The notes: generated by a model from the letters alone, not told the origin. DNA of 64,000 nt from Nitrososphaerota archaeon (GCA_028866895.1 JAGWHF010000004.1:1-64000); one strand, 5' to 3'; shown: positions 10,302 through 54,206, numbered from the stretch's first letter. Program-made: numbers and translations.

Positions 10302-10658
10302 ATGAACGCAAAGCTTGTCACAGGCGAATATGATCCTGCCAATGTCCGGTATGCCCTTGACAGGCTGCTGATAAACAGGAGCAATGAATTCCGCGAGATT
10401 GCATACGCGATTGGATATCCTGTCACCCAGCAGTGCTGGGAGGAGTTCATCCTTAGGTTCTGCCTTGAGTTTGACGACTGCTTCAAGATGTGGTCTGACA
10501 GGAACGATAACGCGGATCACAACAAGGTGCACAAATGCATGACCATGATGAGGCAGATTGCAGTAGGCAAGCAGAACATGACGGAGGTAACAAAGCTGCA
10601 GAATGCGGCATACAGGATAGCTGAAGATTTCAAGATACTCTACCAGAGGCTCAAGTGA
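10302..10658 (+). CDS. hypothetical helical protein
   Basis: 118 residues, starting about 27 nt after CCGTTTATC. All-helical pattern with several Cys and His (CWEEFILRFCLEFDDCF, DHNKVHKCMTMM). No domain recognised. The Cys/His content might allow metal binding, but no regular motif is present. Confidence 0.55.
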   Translation: MNAKLVTGEYDPANVRYALDRLLINRSNEFREIAYAIGYPVTQQCWEEFILRFCLEFDDCFKMWSDRNDNADHNKVHKCMTMMRQIAVGKQNMTEVTKLQNAAYRIAEDFKILYQRLK

Positions 10659-10845
10659 GGGCATGGGGCTGCGGATGGCCGGCCTAGCATGGCAAGCGCG
10701 CACCTAGCAGTCATGAATTGTAGGATCAAGACACTGGAATCCGCAAACACGCCCACATGGCGGACATCCTCGGTTTTCGGCGGCCAGCCGCCGAATGGCA
10801 GCCCTTTCAGAAAGCAAATATAGTTACTCCCGGTATCATTATCAA

Positions 10846-11256
10846 ATGAGCATATTCGAAGAATTTTGCAGGAGCGTCATAGCGCTTGACCCGAAGATAA
10901 GGTTTGCAGGGATTGCCGACGGGGACGGGAAGGTGGAGGCTTCAGCAGACAGGGAAGGACTGAAACCCCTGCTGACCTCGGAGGAAAGGGCCCAGTATGC
11001 AATCACTGCTGCAACAAGGCAGTACACAAGGCTAAGGTGGGAGTACCGCCTGGGCAGGATATCATATGCGAGCTCACATTATACCAAGCTTATCAGGGCA
11101 ACGATACCAATAGCTGACGAGAATAGCCGACTTGCCCACGTGCTGCTGCTCTCCTTTGACCCTGATGCTGATGATTATCACCAGATAATTACAAAGAAGA
11201 TAATACCTCTGGTTGCAAAAAGCATGGGCAGTTTCCTAAAGGCGACAGAAAGGTAG
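10846..11256 (+). CDS. DUF6659-like thaumarchaeal protein
   Basis: 136 residues from the ATG at 10846, about 27 nt after AAATATAG; the in-frame ATG at 10795 precedes that promoter and is rejected. The segment CRSVIALDPKIRFAGIADGD, followed by a line ending in REGLKPLLT, resembles the small thaumarchaeal family that I know as DUF6659, which occurs in many copies per genome. The pattern suggests an alpha/beta sensor-like domain. The molecular role is unknown. Confidence 0.65.
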   Translation: MSIFEEFCRSVIALDPKIRFAGIADGDGKVEASADREGLKPLLTSEERAQYAITAATRQYTRLRWEYRLGRISYASSHYTKLIRATIPIADENSRLAHVLLLSFDPDADDYHQIITKKIIPLVAKSMGSFLKATER

Positions 11257-17364: not shown

Positions 17365-18642
17365 TCAGGCGGCTTTTGGTTGTGGGAATGCCTTCCTCAT
17401 GTACCTTGAGAGTACAGGATACTGTACGATGAGCGAGGAGAGCACTACACCAAAAGTTATAGTCTCAAGAATGGCCTTGAAGCTGCTGTCTGGAAGGGTG
17501 GCTACCATGGCCACGGAGAGAGCCCCGCGCATGCCCCCAATCATAACGACGTGTCGCCACGGGTTTGGCCATTTCTCATGGGTAAACCTGTGTGTGGCAG
17601 CAAGAATGGGGTAAGTCGAAGCCGCCCTGGCTGCAAGGACTGCACCGAAGGCCATGACAATCAGTGGGAGGTTCTTGCCAATGTTGAGTATGTCCATACT
17701 CAGCCCAAGATACAGGAATGCGACCGAGTTTGCAAGGAAGGCAATCATGTCCCAAAAATGTGAGTTATAAACGCGGGCGGTTTCGCTCATGGCACCCCTG
17801 CCGGTCATTACTGTGCTTCCGAAATAAAGCCCCGAGGCTGCGGCTGCAACAAGCCCTGAGAGTTTGAGGGCATCTGCAACCACTACGGAGCCGAACAGCA
17901 CGGCCACCGAGAGCGCTGTCACCGGTAGCGGCTCGTTCATAAGCCTCATGAGGTAACGGGCTGCGATGGCAAAGCCCAAGCCGATTGCAATTCCCCCAAA
18001 GAAGACAAGTACAAAGTGTTCCGATTGTCCTAGTATGTCCACGTTTATCTGCCCTATCGTGGCAGGATTCTCTAGGGCTGATCCCTGCGCAAGGGAGAGC
18101 GCTACAATGGATGAGAAGATTACAAGGCCGGTGGCATCGTTAAAGCTTGCCTCCGACTGCATTAATGCGGTCAGGGACTCGGGGGCCTTTATCTTCTTGA
18201 AAATCTCAATGACGATTGCCGCGTCAGTGGGGGCAATAAGGGCAGAGAAGGCAAATGCCACGATTGTTGGTAGGCCGGCAACGTACGAGAGGAGGAATCC
18301 GCCGACAAGGGTGGCAAGAACGACCCCCAATGTGGCAAGGAGCAGCGATGATATCCTGACTGTACGAAACCGCTCCCTGTCAATCTTCATCATTGCCTCG
18401 AAAATTAGCGGGGGCACTATGAAGTCAAGGATTAGGTTTGGAGAGACCTCGAATTTGGTGGTGCCAAATGTGCCAAATCCCGTGACGTGGGCAAGCGAGA
18501 TGATGATTCCCGCCACGACGAGCACCATAGTGTACGGTATACGCGTCTTGTTAGCAACAAGGGAGGCAAAGAATATCATTCCGAGGAATATTGGGATGAT
18601 CCATTCGGTCCGAAGGAGAGACCCGATGCTGATGTAGACCAT
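17365..18642 (-). CDS. Na+/H+ antiporter, CPA1-type
   Basis: 425 residues with about 12 hydrophobic helices. The conserved CPA motif APTDAAIV, with its paired acidic residues in FKKIKAPESL, then the FNDATGLVIF segment with the ion-binding N-D pair, are visible. It exchanges Na+ or K+ for H+ across the membrane for pH and salt homeostasis. The C-terminus is short, without a TrkA or large regulatory domain. No partner gene is adjacent. Confidence 0.88.
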   Translation of the reverse strand: MVYISIGSLLRTEWIIPIFLGMIFFASLVANKTRIPYTMVLVVAGIIISLAHVTGFGTFGTTKFEVSPNLILDFIVPPLIFEAMMKIDRERFRTVRISSLLLATLGVVLATLVGGFLLSYVAGLPTIVAFAFSALIAPTDAAIVIEIFKKIKAPESLTALMQSEASFNDATGLVIFSSIVALSLAQGSALENPATIGQINVDILGQSEHFVLVFFGGIAIGLGFAIAARYLMRLMNEPLPVTALSVAVLFGSVVVADALKLSGLVAAAASGLYFGSTVMTGRGAMSETARVYNSHFWDMIAFLANSVAFLYLGLSMDILNIGKNLPLIVMAFGAVLAARAASTYPILAATHRFTHEKWPNPWRHVVMIGGMRGALSVAMVATLPDSSFKAILETITFGVVLSSLIVQYPVLSRYMRKAFPQPKAA

Positions 18643-45515: not shown

Positions 45516-46487
45516 CTATACAAAGGATCTTTTGACAAGGCTGCCCCGTGCGGTGAATGCGACAATGGCGATTACTGATACAGCAAGGACTATAGTGGCA
45601 AGCTGGCCGAACTCAGGAACTGCCTGCACAGTGAACTTGTCCTCAAGGGGTGATATTGACTTGAAGTTTACCTCCACCACATCAGCAGTAATATCATAAC
45701 TTCCAGAATTGTTGAAGACGGGGCCACTGATGTAGAATGGTCCCGTCATGCTCATGTCAGAATTAGACATGCCGCCGGTCACGCTGGTGGGACCAGATGA
45801 AGGGGTGAATACAAGGGTGAGGTTCCCGTTGTGCGCGTGGAAGTCCTGCTGGAAGATCGTGCTTCCTCCCTGTGAGATTGTAATGCTGTAGTTGAGGTGC
45901 TTTATAGTGCCGTCCGTAACCAGAGTTGAGACGTTTGGGTTTGGCACGAACTTGAGCGTCACATTGCCACCCGAGGACGGATTGAAAGATGCCGGGCTTA
46001 CCATGAGGTTCATGTTAGTGCCCGTCATTGTAGCCGACGTGCCGCCTTGAGTCTGGCCGGTTGCGGCCTGGTTTGTCGAACTGGCCCCGCCTCCGCCGGT
46101 CCCGACTATCACCTCACCTGTCATCCACGGATGGACTTGACAGAAGTAGTAGTAGGTTCCGGGGGTGTTGAAGGCAGGACTAGTATAGGACTTGCCCGCT
46201 GAGATCAGGCTGCTGTCGAAGACTGTGCCCGTCTGGTTGTCTGAAGGTTTGCCACTTGTGGCGGTATGGCCGACCGTATCTTGATTTGTCCACGTGACGG
46301 TATCTCCCACATTTACGTTTACGACCTGCGGATTGAAACAGTCGGTCGGTGTGCAGGTCCCCTTTGTATTGGATGCGCCGCTGCTTATCGTGACCTGAAC
46401 ATTAGCCGCATAAGCTGGCTGAGACATCAGGATGATAACCGCCATAGCCATTGCTCCAATGATAGTGGCAGCCAGTCTTGACTTCAA
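45516..46487 (-). CDS. blue-copper (plastocyanin-like) surface protein with PEFG-type anchor
   Basis: 323 residues from a TTG at 46487, 25-26 nt after TTTTTATAGC (46508-46517), which gives an immediate signal peptide (MKSRLAATIIGAMAMAVIIL). Type 1 copper ligands are complete: H74 (VGHTATS), C116, H119 and M122 (YFCQVHPWMTG). A second beta domain of about 150 residues follows, then VPEFG, a hydrophobic helix and basic residues. Expected electron carrier on the outer face of the membrane. Compare the ligand-less relative at 2753-3562. Confidence 0.92.
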   Translation of the reverse strand: MKSRLAATIIGAMAMAVIILMSQPAYAANVQVTISSGASNTKGTCTPTDCFNPQVVNVNVGDTVTWTNQDTVGHTATSGKPSDNQTGTVFDSSLISAGKSYTSPAFNTPGTYYYFCQVHPWMTGEVIVGTGGGGASSTNQAATGQTQGGTSATMTGTNMNLMVSPASFNPSSGGNVTLKFVPNPNVSTLVTDGTIKHLNYSITISQGGSTIFQQDFHAHNGNLTLVFTPSSGPTSVTGGMSNSDMSMTGPFYISGPVFNNSGSYDITADVVEVNFKSISPLEDKFTVQAVPEFGQLATIVLAVSVIAIVAFTARGSLVKRSFV

Positions 46488-46743
46488 TGTGGTCAGTAAG
46501 CGACTCCAAGCTATAAAAATATGATCACCTTTTTCACGGACCGGTTCTCTCGGCTTCAATTACCATCTGGCCGGTATGATTAACACCAATGTTTACCGTC
46601 AGCGGCACCGAACAGTCATGTGGCTGGTATTGATCGTAGGAGGTAGCGGTAGGGCCGGCAGCAACAGCATTGATGACAGGATTAGTGCCACGTGGCATTG
46701 GGGTAGGATTCTTTTTCCAGCGACATAGAGACTTCGGTACCGT

Positions 46744-47496
46744 TCAGTTGGATACGTCTTTCTCAACCCGTCCATCCCTTATGAAGATCGACCTATCAGT
46801 CCTTCTTGCCAGGTCAGGGTCATGTGTGACCACAATTATGGTCCTGCCAAACTCGCTCGACAGCCTCTTGAGCAGGTCGAAAATCTCACTGCCGGTTTTT
46901 GTGTCGAGGTTACCTGTGGGCTCGTCGGCAAGTATTATGGAGGGATTGTTGACAAGCGCTCTCGCTATGGCAACCCGCTGCTGCTGCCCCCCGCTGAGGT
47001 TCACGGCCTTCTGGTTTATCTTATCAGATATCCCAAGCGCGTCCATTATTGCCGTTGCAGTAAAATCTCCCTTCTTGTGCGGCACGCCTGCAATCATGGC
47101 CGGGATCTCAACGTTTCTCAGTGCAGTTGCCCTGTTTATCAGGTTGTACGACTGGAAAACGTATCCAATCATCTTGTTTCTGACGGTTGCAATCTCCGAG
47201 TCGCTAAGCGAGAAGACGTCGACATCATTTATGTAGACTTTGCCGCTTGTCGGCCTGTCAAGCGCCCCTATCATGTAGAGGAGTGTCGACTTGCCGCTTC
47301 CTGAAGGTCCAAGGATGGAGACAAACTCCCCCTCCTGCACGCTGAGGCTTATGTTCGATAATGCCACAACCGTTCCACCCTCCGACTGGTAGAGTTTTGA
47401 GAGGTTCTCTACTCTCAGCATGACATGTTCCCTTCTTGGCCTTTTTGGGCACAAGCTGTGGGCGTCTTCACGGTGGTCAACATTTGACACTGTCAT
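46744..47496 (-). CDS. ABC transporter ATP-binding protein, MacB/LolD type
   Basis: 250 residues from the ATG at 47496, about 28 nt after AGTATAATTTG. Walker [11 protein letters not shown]-loop FQSYNLI, signature [15 protein letters not shown], Walker [11 protein letters not shown] and H-loop VVTHD are all intact. This subfamily works with MacB/FtsX-type permeases in lipoprotein export, antibiotic efflux or envelope remodelling. No permease gene is in the neighbourhood, which makes it an orphan ATPase in this window. Confidence 0.92.
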
Positions 47497-47746
47497 GCCT
47501 TTCCATAAATGAGGCCGTCAAATTATACTGGCAGAAGAATACCAAGGGTGATAATGAGGCCATCAAGACGTCCAGCCATGACACTTTAGCCAATTGCAGA
47601 TGAGAAATGCCTGAACACGGGAGGTTGTACGGTTTCCAAATGTTGAGAATCAGTCTCGAAAATCGTGCGCCATCCTAATATCTTGCATCAGTGCATGCCT
47701 GATTGATAAAAACACGAACCGCAAGAAATCATATTCATTTGCATGC

Positions 47747-48751
47747 ATGGCCCTAGTGACTATCATGCTGTATATTCTCATCGGCATCCATCTGGTCTTG
47801 GCGCAGGAAGAGGCGGAGGAGAAATACAACATGCCAGATTGGCTGCAGAATACCGCCCAGTGGTATACACATGGAAAGATAAGCGAATCTACCTTCATCA
47901 ATGCGTTCAGGTACGCCATTCAGCACGGGCTCTTCCTCGTAGAGCCTCGCGAGGAGGCCCAGGAGGCCATTGCGGGGACGATTACGACAGGCACGTCTGC
48001 AATTCAGGCCGGTCAGCCGAAAAACTGCCTGACCAACAACTTTCCGATGGTGGACTGGTCTGGCTGCAACTTTTCGGGAGTAGACCTCAATCATTACAAT
48101 CTTCATGATTCCAACCTCACGGAAACTAACCTTGCAGGGGCTGACCTTGAGAAGGCCTACATGATGAATGCTGACATGCGGCATGCAAACTTAGACTATG
48201 CCCAGATGACAAATGCTGATTTGCCAGGGGCTGACCTTGCATATTCAAGCATGAAAGGCGTGCTGGGCCAGTTTCTGGACCTTCGTTTTGCCGATATGAC
48301 CGGGGCTGACCTTAGCGGATCACACCTGATAGGGACGTCTGCAAACTGGTCTGTGATGAGGGGAGTCAACCTTACAAATTCAGATGTCAACCATTCGGAA
48401 TTCCTGAGTGTAGACATGTCGGGCAGCCAAGCAAGGGGCGCCAACTTTGAGGAGTGCCTCCTTGTTGATGTAAACTTTACCTCGACTGATGCATCGAGTG
48501 CGGATTTCAGGGATGCCGACTTGTCCGGTTCTAACATGACAGGTGCCAATCTGGCAGGAGCTGGATTCCAGAATGCTGGACTTGGCTTTGCGGACCTCAG
48601 GGGCGCAGACCTGTCAGGCGCCAATCTTGACCATGCAGACCTAGGGGGTGCTGACCTGTCAGGAGCAAACCTGACAGGGACAAGCCTCTCAGGCACAGTC
48701 CTGGCCGGTGCGAACATGCACTGCATCGGGAATCCAGCCTGCATACGCTGA
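47747..48751 (+). CDS. secreted pentapeptide-repeat protein 2
   Basis: 334 residues. A signal-peptide-like start (residues 1-20, ending VLAQE), then the short domain WLQNTAQWYTHGKISESTF shared with the protein at 27832-28899. From about 95 onward come A(D/N)(L/M)xG pentapeptide repeats. The C-terminus is CIGNPACIR, equivalent to CLDNPICLD in the paralogue. Predicted extracellular beta helix capped by a possible disulfide. Function unknown; related repeats mimic DNA in gyrase inhibitors, but the secreted location argues against that here. Confidence 0.88.
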   Translation: MALVTIMLYILIGIHLVLAQEEAEEKYNMPDWLQNTAQWYTHGKISESTFINAFRYAIQHGLFLVEPREEAQEAIAGTITTGTSAIQAGQPKNCLTNNFPMVDWSGCNFSGVDLNHYNLHDSNLTETNLAGADLEKAYMMNADMRHANLDYAQMTNADLPGADLAYSSMKGVLGQFLDLRFADMTGADLSGSHLIGTSANWSVMRGVNLTNSDVNHSEFLSVDMSGSQARGANFEECLLVDVNFTSTDASSADFRDADLSGSNMTGANLAGAGFQNAGLGFADLRGADLSGANLDHADLGGADLSGANLTGTSLSGTVLAGANMHCIGNPACIR

Positions 48752-50618: not shown

Positions 50619-51857
50619 CTATTGGCCCATGGGTGACATAGCAGGGGCAGCGGTCTTGCCATTACTGATTGTATCGTAGTAATCCCTGCCAAAATTCATC
50701 CTGAAGAGCCATTCACACCTTCCAAGCTCGGCGTTCCAGTATATCTTTGCCATGATCTTTTTCTGGACATAGTTTGTAAATGAGGGGCGTATCTTCTTGA
50801 CCGGCTTGTCATAGGTGCCCACAACAAATGTGGCTTTCCGAAATCCCGTCTCCATCGTACATTGAAACCTGCCAGTGAACAGGTACCTCTCAGATGTACC
50901 CTTGATTTCTGCTGCAATGTTATTTGCAACAACAACCCCCTCAAGATGGGCCTCCACTCCTGCCTTTGAAATTGGAAGGTTTGTGTTATCCCCTATGGCA
51001 AACGCATAATCATAGTCCTTTACGTGCAGATCTCTTTTGTTTGCAATAACCCACCCGTCACTGTCGGAAAATTCCGACCTCCTTATTACGTCAGGCGTAA
51101 TGTGTGGGGGTACAAGAAACAATTCATCATACGATACCGATTCCCCCTCCATTGAATAAACTATCTTTCTTATCGGATCTACGCTCTCCACATTAAAGCC
51201 AAGAAGCGTCTCAATCTTTCTCTCCTTGTACAAAGGTTCTATCACCTCGCTCATAGGTTCTGCAGGATATGGTCTAAGATATGGCGTGATAAAGCAAAGC
51301 CCCACCTTCTCCCTCATGCCCCTCTTTGTAAAGAACTCGTGCAGCAGGAATGTACTCTCGTTTGGGGACGGTGGGCACTTGTACGGCAGTCCTGCAATAC
51401 CTGTGACTATTTTTCCTCCCTGAAACTTTGAGATGCGATCAAATATCTTTTTGGCATGATTGCTGGTGTGAAAATCAAGGTTTGCCTCCGAAAGTCCCGG
51501 TATCTGGCTTGGGTCAGGAATGCAGCCGACGGCTATGGCAGCATATTCAAAGTCAGACCTCTTTCCTGATCTTTCCCCTACGACAAATTTGTTGGCAAGA
51601 TCTATCTTGCTACAGTTCTCGTCTACAAGACGGACAGAGCTTGAAAGCAGTGATGACGTGGGCCTCCTGATTGCATTTTCGTTGGAACCATGAAAGGCCA
51701 CTGCGAGATAGGCAGGTTGGAATTCGTGGAATTTTGCACCGTCAAAGACCGTAACGCTGACCTCTCCCTTCCTTATCTCCTTTTTCAGGTGCCTTGCCAG
51801 ACCGTTTGCAACTACCGCGCCCCCCGTCCCGCCACCAATCACAATTATCCTTTTCAA
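50619..51857 (-). CDS. sulfide:quinone oxidoreductase-like FAD-dependent oxidoreductase
   Basis: 412 residues. N-terminal FAD motif IIVIGGGTGGAVVANGLARH; second dinucleotide region about 140-175 with GIAGLPYKCPPSPNE, whose Cys corresponds to the conserved active-site Cys of SQR-type proteins; C-terminal FAIGDNTNLPISKAG. It would oxidise sulfide or a related persulfide and reduce quinone at the membrane. The amphipathic C-terminus fits a monotopic protein. TusA and DsrE genes upstream on the same strand support a role in sulfur transfer. An NDH-2-like role is the alternative. Confidence 0.83.
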   Translation of the reverse strand: MKRIIVIGGGTGGAVVANGLARHLKKEIRKGEVSVTVFDGAKFHEFQPAYLAVAFHGSNENAIRRPTSSLLSSSVRLVDENCSKIDLANKFVVGERSGKRSDFEYAAIAVGCIPDPSQIPGLSEANLDFHTSNHAKKIFDRISKFQGGKIVTGIAGLPYKCPPSPNESTFLLHEFFTKRGMREKVGLCFITPYLRPYPAEPMSEVIEPLYKERKIETLLGFNVESVDPIRKIVYSMEGESVSYDELFLVPPHITPDVIRRSEFSDSDGWVIANKRDLHVKDYDYAFAIGDNTNLPISKAGVEAHLEGVVVANNIAAEIKGTSERYLFTGRFQCTMETGFRKATFVVGTYDKPVKKIRPSFTNYVQKKIMAKIYWNAELGRCEWLFRMNFGRDYYDTISNGKTAAPAMSPMGQ

Positions 51858-51912
51858 GTAATGATTACACCAGCCCCATACGAATGGACGTCCCCTGTAG
51901 CAATTTCTGGAA

Positions 51913-52155
51913 TCATGCCATGCCCCTCTTGCTTACTATCCTGATTACAGCCTTGTATGTACCGGCATCCTCGGTTATGCCGACAAGCTCGTTCCTAGTT
52001 CTCTCGCACCAGGCCTTGGCATCTGATTTTATCCCGACATCTGTGGCGAGAAGCTCGATAAGATCGCCGTTGGCGGCCTTTCTGTACGCCCTTATCAGGT
52101 CGGTAATGGGCCCAGGACAGGCTGTTCCTCTGCTGTCTACTATTATTGTAGCCAT
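51913..52155 (-). CDS. tusA: TusA/SirA-family sulfur carrier protein
   Basis: 80 residues. The CPGP motif in DSRGTACPGPITDL carries the persulfide-forming Cys. A second Cys (AKAWCERT) is at about residue 50. It passes sulfur between donors and acceptors in the cytoplasm. It lies 12 nt downstream of the DsrE gene and 55 nt upstream of the SQR-like gene: a sulfur-trafficking operon. Confidence 0.9.
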   Translation of the reverse strand: MATIIVDSRGTACPGPITDLIRAYRKAANGDLIELLATDVGIKSDAKAWCERTRNELVGITEDAGTYKAVIRIVSKRGMA

Positions 52156-52167
52156 GAACGTTTTACT

Positions 52168-52587
52168 TCAGATGAAGATTATCTGGCCTCCTCCAGACTG
52201 CTGCATGAACGACGCAGCCCCCACAATATCATCTACAATGCCGTCAAGCTGTTCTTTTGTCTTGATCTTGTAAACCTCAGTCATTAATGAGCAGGCATAG
52301 ATTTTCACGCTTCCTATCTCTTTGGCAGATTTTAACATCTCGTACCAGCTTGGGGCTTTGATGTCCTGAAGGCCCTTTTGGAGCATCGGCACCATGTCTG
52401 CAAACTCCGATGGCATACGGTTAACGTTCTTCTGCCCATCCTTTAGAAAGCCGGCAAGCGCCCAACCGGTCACAAATATCGATACAGGTATGCCGAGGTT
52501 GGCTGCAGTCTGCGAAATTACCCCTAACGGGATAAACTTGTCGGCAGTGCCGGAGAACATGATTATGTTCAGGCCCAATCTATCCAC
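52168..52587 (-). CDS. DsrE-family sulfurtransferase-like protein
   Basis: 139 residues from a GTG at 52587. The DsrE/F fold is shown by IIMFSGTADKFIPLGVISQT and the central IPVSIFVTGWALAGF, and the conserved Cys is in VKIYACSLMTEVY. DsrE proteins bind sulfane sulfur and exchange it with TusA; DsrE3-TusA pairs are known in sulfur-oxidising archaea. First gene of the operon dsrE-tusA-SQR-like. An inverted repeat lies upstream (52629-52660). Confidence 0.88.
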   Translation of the reverse strand: MDRLGLNIIMFSGTADKFIPLGVISQTAANLGIPVSIFVTGWALAGFLKDGQKNVNRMPSEFADMVPMLQKGLQDIKAPSWYEMLKSAKEIGSVKIYACSLMTEVYKIKTKEQLDGIVDDIVGAASFMQQSGGGQIIFI

Positions 52588-52628
52588 CCCGCACAGATTC
52601 TGTCATATCGGTCTTGGAGGCACTAGAC

Positions 52629-52660
52629 GGCAATCTCGAGTCCATTGAAAAGAGATTGCC
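52629..52660. promoter_or_regulatory. perfect 9-bp inverted repeat between the sulfur operon and the His-rich membrane protein
   Basis: GGCAATCTC (52629-52637) and GAGATTGCC (52652-52660) are perfect inverted arms separated by 14 bp, in the middle of the divergent intergenic region. The arm spacing fits a dimeric repressor or activator site that could control both directions. No regulator gene is adjacent, so the ligand is unknown. It could also form an RNA hairpin if transcribed. Confidence 0.5.
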
Positions 52661-52754
52661 TTGAGAAAATAAAAAACAGGTACCAGATTATCAACCCTGA
52701 AATCCTTACGGGATGTTTTAACTTGGTGATTCATTTTAGGATTTAGGAAGAAAT

Positions 52755-54206
52755 TTGGTACAGCATCTGCAAGGAAAGTACTTTACCCCCAAGTTCTTGT
52801 GCTGCTGGAGCATGGCATGGGCTGTAGGACTCATGGCCATCGCGCCGGTGGTTAACACGGTGACCCCCTTTCTTAACGACTCATACAACAGCCATTGGAC
52901 CCCTGATATTCTGTACAGGCTCAACATGTACTGGCACGGGGGTCTCTTTCTTCCATGGGTAATCGTACTTCTTGCAGTAATTTACAGCCGTGTAGGTCTT
53001 GACCGGCTGGGGGGGTTTCTTGGCAAGCTTCTCAGGGTTTTTCTATTTGGATTTGGGATACTAGCCGCACCGCTTGCCGGAATAGGCGGCATGTTCAACG
53101 TGACAGACAAGTTTGCCTTTGGAATACCACACTTGTTGGAATATCCCGCCTTTGCAGTCCTCGACCTGATATCCATTACCCTGATAATCTCTCTGCTCCT
53201 ATATCCTCGCTTTTCAGGTAGAGGTTACAAGTCATTGGGCATACCCTACTACGTTCTTCTTCTTTGTGTGATTGGCGCTTTCATTGCAGCGATGCTCGGA
53301 TATTTCGCAGCATACATAACAGTGAGCGGCCCAAGCCCGCCAATTTTTGCACATTACATAAATTCCACAATGTATCCGGTTCTCGGCTACTACAACTCCA
53401 CATCTGTCGTAACGTTTGCACAAGATGCCGTCACCTCTCATTCACATGCCATGTTGCCAATCATCATGGCAGGTATTGTGGTCTTGGTTGCCATGTCATA
53501 TGGACATAGCAGGTGGTCTAGGGCGGAAAAGGCAGCCTCAACGACCGGATTTTTGATAATGGCCGGAGCCATATTTGGCACACTATGGGTTTACCTCTCA
53601 TCCGGGGTTGGAAACTATACAATACCCACCCTCTTTGCCTCAGGTCCGAACGGTATTGCGGAAGATGACATTATAACAGGCCTTGTAGGCGCGGGAGCCC
53701 TATTTGTCCTGGCTGCCCTTTTGTCATTCTCAAGGAGGACGCGTACTGAAGGAGGAACCATCCTGGCAAGGGATCCCCTCTTTTTATCCACCATTGCGTC
53801 GTGGGTTTTGATCTATCTTGTAATACCTGTGAACGGTTTCTACATCGAGCTCCACGAGTCATACTATGGCGCGGCGGGAGCTGCCTTTGATGCCGCATAT
53901 ACGAGGTTTCATCAGGACTTTGCATTCTTTGCCCTTCCGGCCCTTGTTACTACGGTTCTAGTTTTAGAGTTGTACAACATGCCTTCTAGGGCAAGGAAAA
54001 TCGTAGGTTACCTTTACCTGTCCGGGCAGGTGTTGGCCTATGTGGCCGGCGAGACATACTCGATCTTCACGTTGAATCCTGTGGCGCTGGCCCTTGCGGT
54101 TTTTGGCGGAGCAGTCATGATGGCGGGCGTTGTTGTTGGATTGAGATACATTAGAAAGGCCGGTCCTGCGGCCACCTTGGACAGGGCAGAACTCACCTCT
54201 CCGTAG
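52755..54206 (+). CDS. polytopic membrane protein with conserved-looking histidines, function unknown
   Basis: 483 residues from a TTG at 52755 (CATTTTAGG TATA-like about 23 nt upstream). About 12-13 transmembrane helices. Histidines lie in helix-end or membrane positions: H61 (MYWHGGLF), H200, H229 and H231 (TSHSHAML), H251, H367 (ELHESYYG) and H386 (RFHQDFAFF). The pattern suggests heme or copper binding, loosely like heme-copper oxidase or NO-reductase-type subunits, but I cannot assign a known family. It is divergent from the dsrE-tusA-SQR operon and shares the inverted repeat with it. Confidence 0.65.
   Translation: MVQHLQGKYFTPKFLCCWSMAWAVGLMAIAPVVNTVTPFLNDSYNSHWTPDILYRLNMYWHGGLFLPWVIVLLAVIYSRVGLDRLGGFLGKLLRVFLFGFGILAAPLAGIGGMFNVTDKFAFGIPHLLEYPAFAVLDLISITLIISLLLYPRFSGRGYKSLGIPYYVLLLCVIGAFIAAMLGYFAAYITVSGPSPPIFAHYINSTMYPVLGYYNSTSVVTFAQDAVTSHSHAMLPIIMAGIVVLVAMSYGHSRWSRAEKAASTTGFLIMAGAIFGTLWVYLSSGVGNYTIPTLFASGPNGIAEDDIITGLVGAGALFVLAALLSFSRRTRTEGGTILARDPLFLSTIASWVLIYLVIPVNGFYIELHESYYGAAGAAFDAAYTRFHQDFAFFALPALVTTVLVLELYNMPSRARKIVGYLYLSGQVLAYVAGETYSIFTLNPVALALAVFGGAVMMAGVVVGLRYIRKAGPAATLDRAELTSP

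Follow-up and report, generated by a model that had tools for sequence, protein, structure and literature searches.

Here, we describe a membrane protein (P0001), encoded divergently from a compact sulfur-transfer operon in an archaeal genome, that is predicted to have the fold of heme-copper oxidase (HCO) subunit I and that carries four invariant histidines. Taking predicted fold, profile comparison, and gene neighbourhoods together, we lean towards P0001 being a heme-b protein of HCO fold in the same electron chain as the sulfane-sulfur operon at its side, a reading that we hold to be somewhat probable.

The window, i.e., the whole stretch of DNA analysed (64,000 nt), belongs to a 2.26-Mb genome (G000) that is 99.7% complete and encodes an archaeal AmoA, its host being an ammonia-oxidizing thaumarchaeote, probably of the genus Nitrosotalea. 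Close relatives of P0001 are present in Thaumarchaeota metagenome-assembled genomes (MAGs).

Results and discussion

The sulfur-transfer operon and its divergent spacer

The dsrE, tusA, and SQR-like (sulfide:quinone oxidoreductase) genes follow one another on the minus strand (50619-52587) with intergenic gaps of 12 and 55 bp and with Pfam support for their products, which upholds the single operon proposed in the earlier note (Table 1). TusA matched PF01206 at 63.4 bits, and C13, P14, and P16 of its CPxP motif were invariant in the homologue alignment, as were C99 of DsrE (PF13686, DrsE_2; 58.1 bits against a cut-off of 25) and C161 and C333 of the SQR-like protein (Pyr_redox_2, PF07992), the last two of which we take to be the known SQR redox cysteines. 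Hence, as read from the alignments, the presumed catalytic cysteines are retained in SQR, DsrE, and TusA. The SQR-like protein is closest to type III SQR (NCBIfam model NF049943), which it resembles in a near full-length profile match and in its two conserved cysteines, but its score of 266.6 bits lies under a cut-off (525) that was set for the selenoprotein subtype of type III SQR.

Such a gene set would constitute a sulfane-sulfur unit that probably serves to oxidize or detoxify sulfide or polysulfide. SQR, TusA, and DsrE genes also stand together in the SQR-TusA-DsrE4 "sulfur island" of Metallosphaera cuprina (Mcup_1722-1724), as given in the relevant section of its description (PMC4175335); in the window, an HCO-fold membrane protein lies alongside, whereas that part mentions none for M. 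cuprina. The window operon also differs from the Hdr-TusA-DsrE operons of sulfur oxidizers in having no Hdr genes, although a Bacillota member of the P0001 family (locus L125) adjoins one of these.

The spacer between the operon and P0001 holds an exact inverted repeat, GGCAATCTC-N14-GAGATTGCC, just as had been described. The joint regulation of both sides that was read into it fared less well: perfect 9-bp repeats arose in 2% of spacer shuffles and in 8 of 383 window tiles, and the sister species lacks the repeat, which the earlier note had proposed to seek upstream of orthologues, at its own copy of the operon. We therefore rejected it as an operator.

Table 1 Features of the locus and its surroundings (window coordinates)
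Feature	Position	Strand	Evidence
SQR-like flavoprotein (sulfide:quinone oxidoreductase), type III-like, 412 aa, C161 + C333	50619..51857	-	PF07992; NF049943 below cut-off
TusA sulfur carrier, 80 aa, C13-P-G-P	51913..52155	-	PF01206, 63 bits
DsrE-type sulfurtransferase, 139 aa, conserved Cys99	52168..52587	-	PF13686, 58 bits
Perfect 9-bp inverted repeat in divergent spacer, indistinguishable from chance	52629..52660		Shuffles, window tiles, sister operon
P0001, 12-TM membrane protein, HCO subunit-I-like predicted fold, no canonical CuB site; 483 aa, TTG start	52755..54206	+	ORF, AF2, Foldseek/VIA
Codon of invariant H61, TM2 of P0001	52935..52937	+	16-homologue alignment
Codons of H229-S-H231, TM6 HxH of P0001	53439..53447	+	Both His invariant, 16 homologues
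Codon of invariant H386, TM10 of P0001	53910..53912	+	16-homologue alignment
Plastocyanin-type cupredoxin, possible redox partner	45516..46559	-	PF00127; homologue near P0001 orthologue in L002
Pentapeptide-repeat protein	47747..48751	+	PF00805; homologue directly downstream of P0001 orthologue in L002

A rare membrane protein family with four invariant histidines

The divergent membrane protein is, as had been noted, an open reading frame on the strand opposite the operon. Its AlphaFold2 model (pLDDT 75.5, pTM 0.82) has 12 membrane helices plus two short non-membrane helices, which narrows the 12-13 helices first counted to twelve. Across 16 homologues (down to 24% identity), the invariant histidines are exactly H61 in helix 2, H229 and H231 in helix 6, and H386 in helix 10, whereas H200, H251, and H367, which the earlier note had listed with them, are variable. 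A conserved pair of adjacent histidines occurs nowhere in these 16 homologues.

Neither Pfam nor NCBIfam contains a match to P0001, and the COX1 model PF00115 matched neither P0001 at E<=5 nor seven homologues at E<=10. A PDB sequence search returned a single chance match and nothing credible, while the hits of a PDB profile search, mainly designed armadillo proteins aligned via low-scoring repeats, were discarded.

The family is rare and is found in some Thermoproteota and Bacillota genomes. Among 60 genomes of the genus and order, four further members or remnants turned up. Elsewhere in the phylum, G182, G324, and G369 carry one copy each, and Bacillota MAGs contain several paralogues. When the scan was widened to 398 Bacillota genomes, no true member was gained; a weak match in G614 is false, since it falls in a transporter-like ORF. 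No plasmid relatives were found. The hosts may have acidic habitats in common. Separately, Bacillota paralogues at L042 13567-17125 and L129 9148-15685 are clustered with ApbE (flavin transferase) and with tandemly repeated genes for two kinds of apparently secreted proteins lacking Pfam matches, and a third paralogue (G446:C143:32840-33202; L042 about 17841-18203) is interrupted by a TGA stop.

Predicted fold and kinship with heme-copper oxidases

HCOs are the principal enzymes of aerobic respiration. Canonical HCOs from related genomes had six ligand histidines, invariant in 22/22; helices 2 and 6 each contribute one of these, helix 7 a pair, and helix 10 an HxH. With the P0001 model as query, Foldseek ranks 1-18 were all HCOs or NO reductases (best E 9e-4), and VIA placed cbb3 CcoN first (3mk7_G; 381 aligned residues, 3.7 A, Z 22.1), all 50 of its listed entries being HCOs or NO reductases (NORs). 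The fold of P0001 is itself a prediction built on 11-16 sequences only, and in that model it resembles HCO subunit I, the 12-helix fold included. A fragment model of helices 1-8 again had HCOs on top in VIA (Z about 15) and gave no significant Foldseek match.

Further, when the P0001 family was compared by profile with the 22 canonical HCOs, the score was 40.6 in the best rotation and 36.9 with the helices in their native order. As a null, 60 block-shuffled sets, each taken at the best of its three rotations, gave 17.9 +/- 3.3 with a maximum of 24.8, and reversing the profile gave 17.5; an NO-reductase-like pair in the same kind of test scored 36.3. Hence, the HCO relationship is supported by sequence besides the predicted fold, with a strength that varies with the subsets compared. 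That P0001 is instead a 12-helix transporter without oxidase kinship, a reading compatible with its having no family match, seems to us very improbable, given that Foldseek ranks no transporter above position 19, giving those it lists a low probability and TM-score, and that four intramembrane histidines are among the invariant residues.

Like HCO subunit I (cbb3 CcoN, cNOR NorB, qNOR), then, P0001 has a 12-helix fold, as predicted, and conserved histidines in helices 2, 6, and 10; unlike it, P0001 has no PF00115 match, no helix 7 histidine pair for CuB/FeB, an HxH in helix 6 rather than helix 10, and no adjacent subunit II gene. In the known enzymes, three histidines hold CuB, and His347 and His349 of cNOR are ligands of its two hemes (PMC10256718). 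Because the P0001 family has no helix 7 pair, a normal binuclear centre is absent, and P0001 would not be a reductase of oxygen or NO of the ordinary kind. The earlier suggestion of heme or copper binding can accordingly be divided: heme is well supported by the four invariant histidines and the HCO fold prediction, but the copper pair is missing. The host genome also encodes an ordinary HCO (G000:C12), and P0001 is therefore not its main terminal oxidase; G182 and G450, each with a P0001-family member, had no PF00115 match.

Helix register and a possible circular permutation

The invariant HxH of the family is in helix 6, and whether it matches the HxH of HCO helix 10 depends on the register chosen. 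Two more specific forms of our preferred explanation, a heme-b protein of HCO fold, can be distinguished, both compatible with it. In the first, which we regard as a tentative possibility, P0001 keeps the normal HCO order and has lost the oxygen-reducing centre but retains a low-spin heme, placed between helices 2 and 10. The structural alignment to cbb3 at 3.7 A, sequential and whole-length, agrees with this order, as does an "HG" motif in helix 2 that resembles HCO helix 2; however, helix 10 has a single histidine rather than HxH, and the best local profile alignments are not whole-length in that register, the native-order alignment (198 columns) placing P0001-family helices 2-7 on HCO helices 6-11.

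The second form, possible and held just as loosely, is a circularly permuted subunit I whose helices 1-8 would match HCO helices 5-12 and whose helices 9-12 would match HCO helices 1-4. Moving P0001-family helices 9-12 to the front lengthened the profile alignment from 198 to 333 columns, raised the score from 36.9 to 40.6, and brought each of the four invariant histidines onto an HCO ligand column (H386 on that of helix 2, H61 on that of helix 6, and H229/H231 on the helix 10 HxH). H231 and H386 would then ligate a low-spin heme and H229 a high-spin heme, with H61 as one surviving CuB ligand. The model of helices 1-8 could be superposed on helices 5-12 in cbb3, cNOR, and some ba3 chains, as a permuted protein should, but with near-equal Z also on helices 1-8 of most aa3 chains; since HCOs have an internal pseudo-threefold symmetry, this fragment fits both registers. 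The same symmetry bears on the profile scores: genuine HCO arcs cross-match one another at up to 29, and single-arc comparisons of the P0001 family, the best at 25.5, did not exceed this. Profiles of Bacillota members alone moreover favoured another rotation, and the subset tests conflict. For these reasons, permutation is not taken as the best explanation. A still fuller proposal appears doubtful to us: that the family is a circularly permuted HCO branch, bereft of most of its copper site, whose task in archaea and bacteria from acidic habitats is the oxidation of sulfane sulfur. A literature search of incomplete coverage found no publications joining circular permutation with heme-copper oxidases.

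Recurrent sulfur-transfer neighbours

Does the family travel with sulfur-transfer genes? TusA lies within 5 kb of a P0001-family gene in 4/11 lineages, for which the chance, calculated from TusA counts and genome sizes, is 2.4e-5, a somewhat optimistic figure in that the 5-kb limit was picked after several loci had been seen. Two of these lineages have DsrE and SQR as well, one an Hdr-DsrE operon, and one a sulfite reductase. In the sister species G024, the P0001 orthologue has this DsrE-TusA-SQR operon at a distance of 2.6 kb, and a Bacillota MAG (G543) carries a homologue of roughly 27% identity with DsrE-TusA-SQR-DUF1641 placed 1.8 kb upstream on the same strand, so that the neighbours named in the earlier note indeed recur beyond the window. 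No publications on the SQR-TusA-DsrE-DUF1641 set were found, again with incomplete literature coverage. The homologue in another Bacillota genome (G500, locus L125) adjoins TusA-FlpD/MvhD-HdrA-HdrA-HdrC-HdrB-DsrE, with two HdrA-like genes; at L003, the distance from the homologue to a TusA of CPYP type and to a sulfite/nitrite reductase is 1.5-3.3 kb; and in G324, the genes that follow it are a metallo-beta-lactamase and one with a weak DsrE match. This recurrence at low chance supports a gene link of the P0001 family to sulfur transfer, a link that is not universal, since G032, G182, G369, and G522 have no TusA near their P0001-family genes.

Several of these loci have further peculiarities. 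The G500 copy (L125 9782-10807, minus strand) is without helices 1-4 and may be broken, with an inverted C-terminal piece beside it (10551-11036, plus strand) that reflects either rearrangement or an assembly fault. In G021, also a sister species, only the first two P0001-family helices are present, fused to an unrelated membrane segment (L040 8997-9530, minus strand, contig G021:C55), and the only SQR found is a 98-residue stretch (G021:C7:9408-9701), so the sulfur island looks decayed there. Near the G522 homologue (L126 3433-8476), reading by eye suggested a radical-SAM gene similar to those of sulfatase maturases, together with two ORFs of sulfatase type.

The exceptions invite the view that P0001 is unrelated to sulfur, a mere neighbour of the operon, with a cupredoxin or metal-handling system as its partner. 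In G032 (L002 2734-8573), the orthologue indeed stands between cupredoxin-related genes, a DoxX gene, and a pentapeptide-protein gene with no SQR operon, and at L003, a sulfocyanin-type cupredoxin upstream and a P-type ATPase are also near the homologue. We nonetheless consider this view unlikely, because nearby TusA recurs in four lineages at a chance of about 2e-5. The L002 cupredoxin and pentapeptide genes have homologues in the window itself, at 45516-48751.

Proposed role and significance

Under our preferred explanation, SQR would oxidize sulfide (or persulfide) and reduce quinone, and DsrE and TusA would pass sulfane sulfur on as protein persulfide. The helix 6 HxH of P0001 and the single histidines of helices 2 and 10 may bind one heme or two, probably heme b, close to the outer face, and electrons would move between the quinone pool and another carrier, possibly a cupredoxin such as that at 45516-46559. 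We infer heme binding, electron partners, and a role in sulfide/polysulfide oxidation or detoxification from these lines taken together, the involvement in sulfide oxidation being suggested by gene neighbourhood. The "new type of membrane partner" of the earlier note is thus upheld as a new and unannotated branch of a predicted HCO fold, while its proposed part in sulfide oxidation draws on the neighbourhood only.

Within the oxidase superfamily, the P0001 family may represent a new branch with a link to sulfur. An HCO fold without its copper pair, recurring by sulfur-transfer genes, would reveal uses of this scaffold beyond O2 or NO reduction, and the permutation, if real, would allow a test of whether three repeated arcs gave rise to the HCO fold. 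Finally, the family would bear on how microbial sulfur metabolism joins the respiratory chain.
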